A stretch of DNA of 34,437 nt from an uncultured Actinomycetes bacterium (GTDB lineage Bacteria > Actinomycetota > Actinomycetes > Nanopelagicales > Nanopelagicaceae): NCBI GenBank assembly GCA_903894425.1, contig CAITQC010000132.1:1-34437 (forward strand), written 5' to 3'. Each line of letters starts with the position of its first letter. The first letter of the stretch is position 1. The position numbers and the translations under genes are program-made. Below, piece by piece: positions 16,711 to 29,097 of this stretch. The notes beneath the pieces were generated by a model. It saw only the letters and a program-made list of their open reading frames with translations. It was not told where the DNA came from and made no database searches.

Positions 16711-17469
16711 TTATCGTAGATGAACTACGTCACCGGCTTGAACATGAGTGCCTGAGTCTAAAACCAACTCTCCACGAGGCGAGATTGCGATTGCAACTCC
16801 TTTTTCGATTTGATCATTTGGGTAATGAATCTGAACTCTAGTTCCAAGAGTTGAACTTAAGGATTTATAGAGTTCGGCAATTGATTGATCACCTTGGTCC
16901 CAGGCTGCAAAATTTATTTCAAATTGAGACAAAATCTTGGCTAACAAATGGTTTCGATCGATATTTTCTACACCTTCAATTGCCAGAGAAGTAGCGGTAG
17001 GTACAGGTAACTCTTGCGCGGTCATTCCTACATTTATTCCTATTCCAACTATCACGCCTTCTCCGGCGATTTCGGCAATTAATCCTGAAACTTTCTTTTC
17101 ATTTATCAAAATATCATTAGGCCATTTAACACTTGCTCCATATGGCTTGAGAGTTTGAGCAACTGAGACTCCTGCAATTAAGGCAATCCAGCCCCAATCT
17201 TCTTTATCTCTCTCTGGCTCTAAGTAGAAAGAAAAAAGGAGTGCACTATTTTTTGGTGCTTCAAATGTACGTGACATTCTTCCGCGCCCTGATCTTTGAA
17301 AATTTGCAGTGACCACATCTCCGGGTTTGGCTTTCCCATCATTTGCGCGCTCCACCAGAAGGTTTTGGGTTGACGCGGTGACATCAACCACGCTTACTCG
17401 CCAGTACTGCGTAACTAAAGAGTTGATGAGCACTTTATCCAGTGCCGCTCTTAGCATTTGCTTGCCCAT
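16711..17469 (-). CDS. birA: Biotin--[acetyl-CoA carboxylase] ligase (lacks N-terminal HTH)
   Basis: [49 protein letters not shown]; start re-assigned from 17505 to ATG 17469 ([12 protein letters not shown]). Confidence 0.93.
16713..16718 (-). promoter_or_regulatory. -10 element TACGAT, purK (leaderless)
   Basis: TACGAT-AAGCCA-GTG(16706); overlaps the birA stop codon. Confidence 0.4.
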
Positions 17470-17487
17470 GACATGTACCGTAGGGGC
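17470..17487. promoter_or_regulatory. Putative 18-bp bidirectional leaderless promoter between birA and accD
   Basis: gacatgTACCGTAggggc: TACCGT+6 nt+ATG on plus, TACGGT+7 nt+ATG on minus; the hexamers overlap at 17476-17482. Confidence 0.6.
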
Positions 17488-19059
17488 ATGAGCCGTGATC
17501 TGCATACTACTGCCGGAAAAATTGAAGATCTACGCGCGCGAATTGAGGAAGCGGTACACGCTGGCTCGGCGCGCGCAGTTGAAAAGCAACATGCCAAGGG
17601 CAAGAACACTGCCCGTGAACGTATTGAAATGCTCGTTGACCCAGATTCATTTACTGAAATCGATGAGTTCGCACGCCATCGCTCTACCGCCTTTGGGATG
17701 GAAAATAACCGTCCTTACGGTGATGGTGTAGTTATTGGTACTGCAACAGTTGATGGAAGACCAATCGCTCTGTACTCACAAGATTTCACCATCATGGGCG
17801 GATCGCTCGGTGAAGTTCATGCTGAAAAAATAGTAAAGATCGCAGAGTTCGCGTTAAAGAGTGGTATTCCACTTATTGGTATTAATGACTCAGGTGGTGC
17901 ACGTATTCAAGAAGGCGTTGCCTCTCTTGCTGGCTACGGAAAGATTTTCCGTCTAAACACTCGCTCCTCCGGTGTAATACCTCAGATCTCACTGATTCTT
18001 GGACCATGCGCGGGTGGTTCAGCGTATTCGCCAGCACTTACAGATTTCACTGTGATGGTTAATGAGACATCGCACATGTTTATCACTGGTCCAGATGTTA
18101 TTAAAACCGTTACTGGTGAAGAAGTTGGAATGGAAGAGTTAGGTGGGGCGCGCACTCACAATACTCGTACCGGTAATTCTCATTACTTAGCTGAAAATGA
18201 AGCCGATGCAATTGATTATGTGAAGGCACTGCTTTCATATCTGCCATCAAATAATATGGATGGTGTTCCACATCTGCCCCCAACCCAAACACTTGAAAAA
18301 AATGTAACAGATATCGCCTTAGATACTTTGATTCCAGATAGCCCTAATCAGCCATACGACATGAAGGTTCTAATTCAAGCCCTTGTTGATGAGGGCGAAT
18401 TCCTTGAAGTTCATGCTCTGTATGCGCCTAATATTGTTGTTGGCTTCGCCCGCATCGAAGGCGAATCGATTGGAATTATTGCAAACCAACCAAATCAGCT
18501 AGCTGGAACTTTGGATATTAACTCAAGCGAAAAAGCTGCACGTTTCTTACGTTTCTGCGACGCTTTTAATATTCCAATCCTAACTCTTGTTGATGTTCCA
18601 GGGTTTTTACCTGGAACTGAGCAAGAGTGGGATGGCATCATTCGTCGCGGAGCAAAGTTGCTCTACGCATACGCTGAAGCTTCAGTTCCATTGGTAACTT
18701 TGATTACACGTAAAGCATATGGCGGAGCATTTATTGTTATGGGATCTAAGTATTTGGGTAGCGATATTAACTTTGCATGGCCGAGCGCTGAAATTGCAGT
18801 GATGGGTGCACAAGGCGCAGTAAATATTTTGTATCGTAAAGAACTCGCCGATGCCAAGGATCCCGTTGCTACTCGTACCCAGTTAGTTGATGACTACAAC
18901 GAATCACTTGCAAATCCATATCTGGCTGCCGAGCGCGGAACTATTGATACGGTCATCGAACCAAATCAATCGCGCGCATACATCACCAAGGCATTTAGAA
19001 CACTGCGCACAAAACGAGACACATTGCCAGCCCGCAAACATGGAAATATTCCGCTGTAA
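17488..19059 (+). CDS. accD: Acyl-CoA/propionyl-CoA carboxylase beta (carboxyltransferase) subunit
   Basis: [50 protein letters not shown]; start re-assigned to ATG 17488 ([11 protein letters not shown]). Confidence 0.95.
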
Positions 19060-24948: not shown

Positions 24949-26399
24949 TGGAGGAAAAATTGTCATTTGAATATGCGCCAGCTCCAGAGTCAAGCGCCGT
25001 CGTTTCGATTAAGCCAAAGTACGGACATTTCATTGGCGGTAAGTTCGTTGCAGGCAGCAAGCATTTCCCAACTATTAATCCGGCAACTGAAGAAGTTCTC
25101 TCACATATATCCCTTGCCGGAAAAAACGAAGTTGATGCCGCTGTAAAGGCAGCCCGCAAGGCTTATGCAACCACATGGTCAAAAATGAGCGGAAAAGAGC
25201 GTGGAAAATACCTATTTCGCATCGCCCGAATCATGCAGGAACGCGCACGAGAGTTTGCAGTTCTAGAAACTTTAGATAATGGCAAGCCGATCCGTGAATC
25301 TCGCGATGTCGATGTACCGCTGGCAGCTGCACACTTTTTCTATCACGCAGGGTGGGCCGACAAGCTTGAATACGCCGGATTAGGCACCACACCAAAACCA
25401 CATGGTGTTGCCGGGCAGATTATTCCCTGGAATTTTCCACTTCTCATGCTTGCATGGAAAGTTGCACCAGCTCTAGCTGCAGGAAATACCGTTGTCTTAA
25501 AGCCAGCGGAGACAACTTCTTTAACCGCACTTCTTTTTGCGCAAGTTTGCCAACAGGCAGAACTTCCAGCAGGTGTAGTCAATATCGTCACTGGTGATGG
25601 TTCTACCGGTGCTTTAATTGTTAACCACCCTGGTATCGACAAGATTGCATTTACAGGATCTACTGAGGTCGGGAAAATAATCGCTCGCGCAGTTGCACCG
25701 ACACACAAAAGCGTGACTTTGGAACTTGGGGGCAAAGCGGCAAATATCGTTTTTGAAGATGCTGCTATCGATGAAGCGGTCGAAGGAATCGTTAATGGAA
25801 TCTTTTTTAATCAAGGACATGTTTGTTGCGCGGGCTCACGATTGCTATTACAAGAGAGCATCGAAAATGAGTTCCTAGAAAAACTTAAAGTTCGCATGGC
25901 AAAGATTCGTGTTGGAGATCCAATGGATAAGAACACTGATTTGGGCGCAATCAATAGCAAAGAACAGCTACTTAAAATCGCCGAGCTTTCGTCAACAGGT
26001 GATTCTGAAGGTGCTGAACGTTGGAGCACACCATGTGATTTACCATCAAAAGGTTTCTGGTTTGCACCAACAATCTTTACGGGTGTCACACAGGCCCATC
26101 GCATCGCACGCGAAGAAATCTTCGGACCGGTACTTTCAGTATTAACTTTTAGAACGCCACAAGAGGCCATTGACAAGGCAAATAACACGCCTTTTGGCCT
26201 ATCCGCTGGCATCTGGAGTGAAAAAGGATCCAAGGTTTTATGGGCATCGCAACAACTTCGCGCTGGTGTTATCTGGGCAAATACATTTAATAAATTCGAT
26301 CCGACATCACCTTTTGGTGGATACAAAGAATCTGGGTGGGGCCGCGAGGGCGGACGTCACGGCTTAAGTGCATATTTGAAGGGGGTCTCACATGAGTAA
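24948..26399 (+). CDS. Aldehyde dehydrogenase family protein, catalytically complete
   Basis: IIPWNFPLLML, TLELGGKAANIVF (Glu), NQGHVCCAGSR (Cys). Alternative TTG start at 24960 sits behind SD GGAGG. Confidence 0.95.
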   Translation: MEEKLSFEYAPAPESSAVVSIKPKYGHFIGGKFVAGSKHFPTINPATEEVLSHISLAGKNEVDAAVKAARKAYATTWSKMSGKERGKYLFRIARIMQERAREFAVLETLDNGKPIRESRDVDVPLAAAHFFYHAGWADKLEYAGLGTTPKPHGVAGQIIPWNFPLLMLAWKVAPALAAGNTVVLKPAETTSLTALLFAQVCQQAELPAGVVNIVTGDGSTGALIVNHPGIDKIAFTGSTEVGKIIARAVAPTHKSVTLELGGKAANIVFEDAAIDEAVEGIVNGIFFNQGHVCCAGSRLLLQESIENEFLEKLKVRMAKIRVGDPMDKNTDLGAINSKEQLLKIAELSSTGDSEGAERWSTPCDLPSKGFWFAPTIFTGVTQAHRIAREEIFGPVLSVLTFRTPQEAIDKANNTPFGLSAGIWSEKGSKVLWASQQLRAGVIWANTFNKFDPTSPFGGYKESGWGREGGRHGLSAYLKGVSHE

Positions 26400-27234
26400 T
26401 CGCATCGATGTCAAAAAGACATACAAATTATTTATCAACGGTGCATTTCCCCGCACTGAATCAGGGCGAACATATGAAGTTAAAAGCGCTAAAGGTTCCT
26501 TCATCGCCAATCCATGTTTAGCTTCGCGCAAGGATTTAAAAGATGCAGTTGTTGCTGCGCGCGCAGCACAGCCAGGATGGAACAAAGCAACTGCCTATAA
26601 CAAAGGTCAGATTCTTTATCGAATTGCAGAGATGCTTGAAGGCCGTCGTGCTCAATTCGTGGATGAGATTGTCACTGTTACTGGTGCAACTAAGGCAAAG
26701 GCTGAGAAAGAAGTAACAGACTCTGTAGATCGCTTAGTTTGGTATGCGGGATGGACTGACAAGATTTCATCTTTATCTGGTGCCCTTAATCCCGTTGCAG
26801 GTCCTTATTACAACTTTACAATCCCTGAAAGCATGGGCGTTATTGCCGCTGTAGCACCAGAGTCTCCATCGCTGCTTGGATTAATCGATGCGATTGCACC
26901 GATAGTTGTCAGCGGAAATACAGTTGTAATTCTTGCAAGTACAAAGGCTCCGTTATCTGCAATGAGCTTTGCAGAAGTAATTGCAACCAGCGATGTTCCT
27001 GCAGGTGTAATCAATATCTTGACCGGCAAGAAGGATGAAATCGCACCATGGATGGCTTCGCACATGGATATCGATGGCTTTGATATCTCGGGATTGAGCG
27101 CCAAGAAGCATGGTGAATTGAAGATTTCCGGAGCTGAAAATCTCAAGCGGATTTACAGTTTTAAATCAGCAGATCCTGGTCGAATCCTGGCATTCATGGA
27201 GAACAAGACAGTTTGGCATCCGATCGGGCTATAA
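26392..27234 (+). CDS. Truncated ALDH-superfamily protein lacking the catalytic Cys/Glu motifs (ALDH16 second-domain-like)
   Basis: KLFINGAFPRTESGRTYEV...GVIAAVAPESPSLLGLIDAIAPIVVSGNTVVILAS aligns with the ALDH N-terminal half; no ELGGK or GQxCCA motif; 8-bp overlap with the upstream ALDH. Confidence 0.85.
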   Translation: MSNRIDVKKTYKLFINGAFPRTESGRTYEVKSAKGSFIANPCLASRKDLKDAVVAARAAQPGWNKATAYNKGQILYRIAEMLEGRRAQFVDEIVTVTGATKAKAEKEVTDSVDRLVWYAGWTDKISSLSGALNPVAGPYYNFTIPESMGVIAAVAPESPSLLGLIDAIAPIVVSGNTVVILASTKAPLSAMSFAEVIATSDVPAGVINILTGKKDEIAPWMASHMDIDGFDISGLSAKKHGELKISGAENLKRIYSFKSADPGRILAFMENKTVWHPIGL

Positions 27235-28182
27235 CCAGCCCTTTTCAATGGTTTTGAACCATAGTTGCTGCACAGCTTCGACATCTAAATCTAAAACCAC
27301 TCGCACCGATGCTGCATCAGATAAATCAATTGGTTCTAGTGCTTTTAAAAATGGCTCTCTGCGATCACAAATAGTTTGACCACGTGCTGGACCCTGTGAT
27401 GTATCAACCACAACATCAAAAATTTCAGTTGTAAATAACTCAGGGCGAATCGCATTTGCCACCGCGCCATAATCGCCAAGAGTTATCGGTGAGACATGCA
27501 AGCGCTCTATAAATGCCTCAATCAAGGTGGCTGCAAATTGCGCTGCTGGATCTGTAGATTTTTTTAATTTGGCAGCATCTTCACTGCTTGCACCTGGGCG
27601 CATAAATACATCAAGTCCATACATTGTGATTGGAATTCCGCTTTGGAAAACAATTGCTGCTGCTTCTGGGTCATGCCATACATTGAATTCAGCTGCGGCT
27701 GTTGCATTTCCTGCCGATGCTGACCCACCCATTAAAACAATACGGTGCAACTTCTTAGCAGTTTCAGGAAAAGCTCGCAAGAATAAAGCAATATTTGTAA
27801 GCGGCGCCAATGGCACCAATGTGACAGGTTCTGGGGATTGTTCAATCAAATCTCGAAGCAATTCAACCGCGGTGCGCGGGTCAACTTTTCGTAATGATGG
27901 TGCAATACCTAAATCGCCCATTCCGTCTGCACCATGTACATATTCGGCGTATTGCGACTTACCTAGTAATGGGCGAACCGCACCGCGTGCTACTGGAATA
28001 TCTCCAGCATCTGCCGCGTCCAAGACCTTCAATGTATTTGCGATGACCTGATCAACATTTGTATTTCCATCAACGCAAGTAATTCCTAATAAATTGATTT
28101 CGGGGTGGCGGGCAGCAAAGAGAACAGCAAATGCATCATCGACGCCTGTATCAACATCAAGAATTATTGAAGTTTTAGTCAT
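27229..28182 (-). CDS. Nucleoside hydrolase (IUNH family)
   Basis: IILDVDTGVDDAFAVLFAARHPEINLLGITCVDGN; VTLVPLAPLTNIALFLRAFP; EFNVWHDPEAA. Confidence 0.94.
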   Translation of the reverse strand: MTKTSIILDVDTGVDDAFAVLFAARHPEINLLGITCVDGNTNVDQVIANTLKVLDAADAGDIPVARGAVRPLLGKSQYAEYVHGADGMGDLGIAPSLRKVDPRTAVELLRDLIEQSPEPVTLVPLAPLTNIALFLRAFPETAKKLHRIVLMGGSASAGNATAAAEFNVWHDPEAAAIVFQSGIPITMYGLDVFMRPGASSEDAAKLKKSTDPAAQFAATLIEAFIERLHVSPITLGDYGAVANAIRPELFTTEIFDVVVDTSQGPARGQTICDRREPFLKALEPIDLSDAASVRVVLDLDVEAVQQLWFKTIEKGWL

Positions 28183-28200
28183 AAGCGATAGCCTATCGCC
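28183..28200. promoter_or_regulatory. Putative 18-bp bidirectional leaderless promoter between nucleoside hydrolase and rbsK
   Basis: aaGCGATAGcCTATCGCc: 7-bp arms, 1-bp centre. TAGCCT+6 nt+ATG on plus, TAGGCT+7 nt+ATG on minus; the hexamers overlap at 28189-28195. Confidence 0.65.
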
Positions 28201-29097
28201 ATGAGTAAAGCAGTAATAGCGGTGGTCGGAAGCGCCATGATAGATTTAACGGCTTATGCAAAAAATATTCCACTGCCCGGCCAAACTTTAGAGGGCGAGT
28301 TATTCACCACTGGATTTGGCGGAAAAGGGGCTAACCAGGCCGTTATAGCCGCCCACTGCGGGGCCGATGTCCATTTCATTGGAAAGCTTGGCAGAGATCT
28401 CTTCGGCGACTCCATCGCAGAGAACTTTAAGAAATTGGGAATGAACTCAGATTTTGTAGATCGAAGTGATACGCCTAATGGGGTTGCACATATCTGGGTA
28501 GATGGAAACGGTGAAAACCGCATCGTAATTATTCCAGGTGCAAATTATGAGATAGATCCAGCTAGGGCGATACAAGGCATCAATTCAATCCAAGATTTAA
28601 CCGTTGTGGTTGCGCAGTGCGAAATTAAACAGGAAGTAACTCTGGCTGCATTTAGCGCTGCTAAGAAGCGCGGATGTACAACAATCTTAAACCCCGCACC
28701 TTTTCAACCATTGAGTGCGCAACTCCTAGAAGTCACCGACTGGATTATTCCCAATGAAACCGAGTTTCTTGAACTCCATGGCAAAGCTCCTTCTAGTGAT
28801 GAAATCCTAAAAGAGTTTAGGCCTGGTAAAAACTCAATCGTCACTTTGGGTTCAGAGGGCGCAGCACTTATTAAAGCTGATGGAACAATCACAAGAATTG
28901 CAGCACCAAAAGTTTCTGCAGTTGATACAACTGGAGCTGGCGATGCATTTGTTGGAACCTTTGCCTTTGCACTGGCCAGCGGCAAGAGCGCCATCGATGC
29001 AGTTAACCTGGGAATCAAGGTTGCATCAATGAGTGTGACGAGAAAAGGCGCACAATCTTCTTATCCAACTCAGATTGAAATTTCTACACTTTCATAA
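28201..29097 (+). CDS. rbsK: Ribokinase / PfkB-family carbohydrate kinase
   Basis: GFGGKGANQAVIAAHCGADVHFIGKLGRDLFGD; LNPAP; DTTGAGDAFVGTFAFAL. Confidence 0.94.
   Translation: MSKAVIAVVGSAMIDLTAYAKNIPLPGQTLEGELFTTGFGGKGANQAVIAAHCGADVHFIGKLGRDLFGDSIAENFKKLGMNSDFVDRSDTPNGVAHIWVDGNGENRIVIIPGANYEIDPARAIQGINSIQDLTVVVAQCEIKQEVTLAAFSAAKKRGCTTILNPAPFQPLSAQLLEVTDWIIPNETEFLELHGKAPSSDEILKEFRPGKNSIVTLGSEGAALIKADGTITRIAAPKVSAVDTTGAGDAFVGTFAFALASGKSAIDAVNLGIKVASMSVTRKGAQSSYPTQIEISTLS

Follow-up and report, generated by a model that had tools for sequence, protein, structure and literature searches.

The 18 bp that separate a nucleoside hydrolase gene (NH) from a divergently oriented gene for a ribokinase-like kinase (RK) are interpreted here as a bidirectional core promoter, in which a single shared −10 block would serve both strands and both mRNAs would be leaderless. 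We give this reading a probability of roughly 0.85; it is the most likely one because the core is conserved, because start codons and −10 elements have moved together in a clade with a 23 bp gap and because TANNNT is enriched before start codons in the genus. The window, i.e. the whole stretch of 34 437 nucleotides that was analysed, is contig G000:C132 of an incomplete 1.53 Mb genome from what we take to be a streamlined lake bacterium. NH (27229–28182, minus strand, 317 amino acids) was assigned by a profile match to PF01156; its scores lie below the NCBIfam equivalog cut-offs, so that these profiles assign no particular substrate. RK (28201–29097, plus strand, 298 amino acids) was assigned by profile match to the PfkB kinases and scores 297.6 bits against TIGR02152 (cut-off 299.65). 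The surroundings of the pair consist of nucleoside and deoxynucleoside salvage genes. An aldehyde dehydrogenase-like open reading frame (26392–27234, 280 amino acids) overlaps the 3′ end of NH by 6 nt and matches only positions 11–213 of the 461 of its profile, so that it is apparently a short or truncated form; at one locus that lacks NH (L244), a C-terminus resembling that of this frame sits before the ribokinase. On the other side, a cytochrome P450 gene (29070–30254) lies immediately downstream of adenosine deaminase in the nucleoside salvage cluster, and its 3′ end overlaps that of the ribokinase tail to tail by 28 bp.

The junction reads CAT (28180–28182), AAGCGATAGCCTATCGCC (28183–28200) and ATG (from 28201), with the predicted start codons 18 bp apart. 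The length, sequence and coordinates of the gap given in the preliminary description proved correct on re-reading, as did the perfect 7+1+7 inverted repeat (28185–28199) with its TAGCCTA core and the hexamer of the form TANNNT that this core supplies on each strand. The putative −10 element of RK, TAGCCT, occupies 28189–28194 on the plus strand and ends 6 nt before the ATG; that of NH, TAGGCT, occupies 28190–28195 on the minus strand and ends 7 nt before its ATG. Positions 28190 and 28194 provide −11A and −7T of both hexamers, i.e. the reciprocal overlap of −7T and −11A on opposite strands. Leaderless genes are recognized by a TANNNT ending 6–7 nt before an ATG or GTG together with the lack of a Shine–Dalgarno sequence, and both starts have this combination: no Shine–Dalgarno-like motif was found at the start of either NH or RK. 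From the −10 distances, transcription is predicted to begin at the A of each ATG (28182 on the minus strand and 28201 on the plus strand), which would place the divergent transcription start sites 18–19 bp apart, inside the range of 7–25 bp that characterizes bacterial bidirectional promoters.

Of the 135 genomes of the genus, 64 contain a match to NH, and about 50 of these matches are close orthologues. The 18 bp gap was kept at 44 loci, 42 of which are non-redundant and were used for all counts; apparent gaps of 27 or 33 bp at some loci reflect a longer ribokinase N-terminus, and a start at +18 is present there. Although these 42 junctions comprise 21 distinct 18-mers, TANNNTA is intact in every one. 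Its columns are T (42), A (42), G (39) or C (3), C (42), C (42), T (42) and A (42), so that the T, A and T of the RK element, the T/A positions of the NH element and the reciprocal −7T/−11A overlap are invariant. The base at −1 is T or C in 42/42 junctions on the NH side and a pyrimidine in 39/42 on the RK side. Outside the core most columns vary, with the frequency of the commonest letter falling to 0.52. All seven core columns reach at least 0.86, whereas only two of 42 fourfold-degenerate sites in NH reach 0.85 or more; at fixed residues the mean pairwise identity of such sites is 0.39, although such sites are only an approximate standard of neutrality and the compared loci share descent. 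Whether relatives with a close divergent pair also retain TANNNTA had been set beforehand as a test, and the motif was present throughout. The middle CC of the core is also invariant, which is more than TANNNT requires, and the flanking CG dinucleotides are partly conserved (81–98%); some further constraint may therefore exist.

To place this spacing in the genus, 400 kb from each of two complete genomes (800 kb in total) were surveyed. TANNNT ended 6 or 7 nt before the first ATG in 46 and 23 of 354 genes, respectively, in the first genome (69/354) and in 53 and 23 of 357 genes in the second (76/357). Other offsets held about 2.5–3 genes on average, an enrichment of about 10–20-fold at 6–7 nt. 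The peak was weaker before GTG and absent before TTG. In the logo of the leaderless-type genes a spacing of 6 nt was the commonest, the hexamers were TAG-rich (TAGACT and then TAGGCT being most frequent), a pyrimidine was preferred at −1 and no consensus −35 was seen. A leaderless-type −10 was present on both sides in 28 of the 106 divergent pairs within the 800 kb, with alternative starts within 150 bp allowed. Given that the core is kept in 42/42 junctions despite a fourfold-site identity of 0.39, and that its spacing is the dominant one before ATG in the genus, the TANNNT pair at the leaderless distance is, as judged from these comparisons, not a product of chance.

Seven further loci of the genus set, forming one clade, have a gap of 23 bp, typically CAT-GGAGTTAGCCTATTATCTATTTC-ATG, with a GTG start at two of them (L125 and L131). 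On the NH side TAGGCT is kept and now ends 6 nt from the ATG. On the RK side, where the start has moved 5 bp further away, a TATTAT has arisen that ends 7 nt upstream of the start; this hexamer has TA in common with the old core, so that the two −10 elements overlap by two bases only. Despite the changed gap, each gene thus has its own −10 at leaderless spacing. In other genera (L245, L246, L248, L249 and L260) the divergent pair has separate TANNNT elements, which as judged by eye from the sequence lie mostly 7–9 nt from each start. Ribokinases that lack an NH neighbour (L250–L259) belong to a different operon and were set aside as uninformative on the junction. A chance origin, in which a compact genome happens to combine a short gap with a palindrome, is hardly credible. 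With some 94% of the sequence coding, genomes of the genus often have very short gaps, and about 2.6 perfect 7+1+7 repeats are expected in shuffled sequence of the length of the window, but the conservation of core and spacing and the joint movement of start codons and −10 elements contradict such an origin.

The preliminary description had also placed any −35 element inside the opposite gene, which was borne out for one direction only. On the plus strand, a candidate RK −35, TTGAAG (28167–28172), lies within NH codons 4–6 and 16 bp from the −10. In the 18 bp set the third base does not vary in NH codons 3 and 4 and is the same in 41/42 junctions in codon 5, compared with three invariant synonymous positions among 72 at fixed NH residues overall. 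The motif is missing from the 23 bp clade, from the decoupled locus L039 and from L248, and the TTG is absent from one locus of the 18 bp set (L025). A search of the RK codons for a corresponding conserved −35 of NH gave none. The RK direction probably has a −35 within the NH coding sequence, and on account of this one-sided element RK may be the stronger direction. The same asymmetry could be taken to mean that only one gene is leaderless from the junction, the other using a promoter inside the opposite gene or a leadered mRNA, with the second TANNNT a by-product of symmetry, which by itself makes a second hexamer likely. We regard this as highly improbable: in the 23 bp clade, whose hexamers have no more than two bases in common, NH and RK both retain a separate −10 at the leaderless distance; the wider gaps of other genera hold a separate TANNNT for each gene; and neither start has a Shine–Dalgarno sequence.

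The inverted repeat had been proposed as a possible repressor operator, and this part of the earlier interpretation did not hold, whereas the bidirectional leaderless promoter was strengthened by the conserved core, the co-movement in the 23 bp clade and the genus-wide spacing signal. If the repeat served mainly to bind a repressor or activator of both genes, overlapping the promoter, its arms should be conserved across orthologous junctions and further sites should occur at co-regulated genes; neither was found. The repeat is perfect at the junction of the window, the inner CG pairs remain complementary in 33/42 and 36/42 junctions and pair 6–14 switches from A–T to C–G in some lineages, all of which would suit a bound protein. 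However, the full seven-pair repeat occurs in only three of the 42 junctions, the outer arms are not conserved (pairs 3–17 and 6–14 are complementary in 16/42 and 14/42) and the repeat is lost in the 23 bp clade. No copy with fewer than two mismatches exists elsewhere in the genome or at the other nucleoside genes of the window, and the window holds one perfect 7+1+7 repeat against 2.6 expected from dinucleotide shuffles. An operator is thus quite improbable, in view of the rarity of the perfect palindrome and its chance-level frequency, and the repeat is best read, from its pattern of variation, as a symmetric −10 core with chance arms. A protein that binds at this single site would be compatible with the missing second copies, and the inner CG pairs are more conserved than a symmetric −10 core with chance arms fully explains.

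The preliminary description had called a two-gene leaderless promoter of this size unusual, but within the genus it is not. The template CAT-N6-TANNNTA-N5-ATG also matches 17467–17490 of the same window, where a second leaderless-type divergent junction of 18 bp (17470–17487) with a TACCGTA core lies between the start of birA (17469, minus strand) and that of a carboxyltransferase subunit (17488, plus strand). An 18 bp gap with a TACCGTA or TACCTTA core was present in all 30 genus genomes examined, with birA starting with ATG or GTG; at three of these 30 loci the carboxyltransferase begins one codon after the alignment start, and counted from there the gap is again 18 bp. The birA open reading frame called from 17505 is probably 12 codons too long. 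A third family, which is recurrent in the genus, has a TATCCTA/TAGGATA core (L264:1212–1235) between genes for MobA-like and metallophosphoesterase-like proteins, names that are a reading of the protein sequences and not the result of a family search. Across the 135 genomes the 18 bp template gave 215 matches compared with 139 for a reversed-pattern control, an excess that is only modest because most matches are not gene junctions; when open frames of at least 60 amino acids were required on both sides, the fetched matches fell into the NH/RK, birA/carboxyltransferase and MobA-like/metallophosphoesterase-like families. The 19 bp template was not clearly above its control, and one family dominated the matches to the 17 bp template. 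A recurrent 17 bp motif, CATCACAGTAGGCTAGCCAAATG (L271:1243–1265), lies upstream of an endonuclease IV-like gene in many genus genomes; the opposing open reading frame may be spurious. A further recurrent motif, CATAGCATATATGCTA (L265; G000:C18:4660–4684), was found with both the 18 and 19 bp templates and has a strong palindrome; it could be a real operator.

In the mechanism that we propose for the NH/RK junction, a single TANNNTA block would supply the −10 on both strands, with −7T of one strand paired with −11A of the other, and RNA polymerase carrying the housekeeping sigma factor would bind in either orientation. Each transcript would begin with the A of its own start codon, at 28201 on the plus strand and 28182 on the minus strand, so that both mRNAs would be leaderless and translated from a 5′-terminal AUG. 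Its likely role would be to express two steps of ribonucleoside salvage, from nucleoside to ribose (NH) and from ribose to ribose 5-phosphate (RK), at low levels that vary together and at minimal cost in DNA. A stronger version, in which the 18 bp form a complete minimal control unit with no leader, ribosome-binding site or regulator, steric exclusion of polymerase sets the ratio of two successive pathway enzymes, the −35 of one gene lies in the codons of the other and the whole is a standard design in streamlined Nanopelagicales, appears rather doubtful. Whether polymerases that compete sterically for a shared −10 set the ratio of two enzymes of one pathway is a question that the junction is well suited to address.

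Bidirectional promoters with symmetric −10 elements were reportedly described by Warman et al. in 2021 (cited by PMC10268837). Such promoters are defined by shared −10 elements that polymerases cannot occupy in both orientations simultaneously, and, short of activation, they fire too rarely in one direction to influence the other (PMC12825309; PMC10268837). By analogy with this low basal firing in Escherichia coli, independent low-level firing in both directions would be favoured at the junction over the switch-like, mutually exclusive expression that the preliminary description had considered. In E. coli the distance between the two start sites is most often 18 bp, with 10 and 23 bp also common (PMC12825309). 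The NH/RK junction resembles these promoters in its shared −10 and reciprocal −7T/−11A, and by −10 arrangement the 18 bp junction and its 23 bp variant fit two of the preferred classes; it differs in the predicted start of each transcript at the start codon itself, which would leave the gap with nothing but the promoter. Neither of the two accounts mentions the leaderless case. Leaderless genes of mycobacteria have a TANNNT −10, no consensus −35, ATG or GTG at +1 and a preferred pyrimidine at −1 (Mycobacterium tuberculosis, PMC3898074; M. smegmatis, PMC4633059), and the genus logo agrees with them in its TANNNT −10, pyrimidine at −1 and lack of a consensus −35; unlike them, the junction has two leaderless-type genes on one −10 block. 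For M. tuberculosis Rv1129c/prpD (Rv1130), both mRNAs of the divergent pair are leaderless (PMC3898074, Fig. 4), as is predicted here for NH and RK; unlike NH/RK, that pair includes a regulator. A search of the open-licence literature yielded no prior description of a pair of leaderless genes whose start codons enclose a single shared −10 and no other element, of leaderless and bidirectional promoters combined in actinobacteria or of leaderless mRNA in Nanopelagicales. The junction is accompanied by an evolutionary record, in the form of 18 bp, 23 bp and, in other genera, decoupled versions, and since a start codon bounds the promoter on either side, genome sequence by itself is enough to read spacing rules that in E. 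coli come from transcription mapping. Both ingredients, symmetric bidirectional promoters and leaderless mRNAs, are already known; the junction joins the two in a condensed form of an established kind of promoter, and the result may be near the smallest possible divergent gene arrangement.
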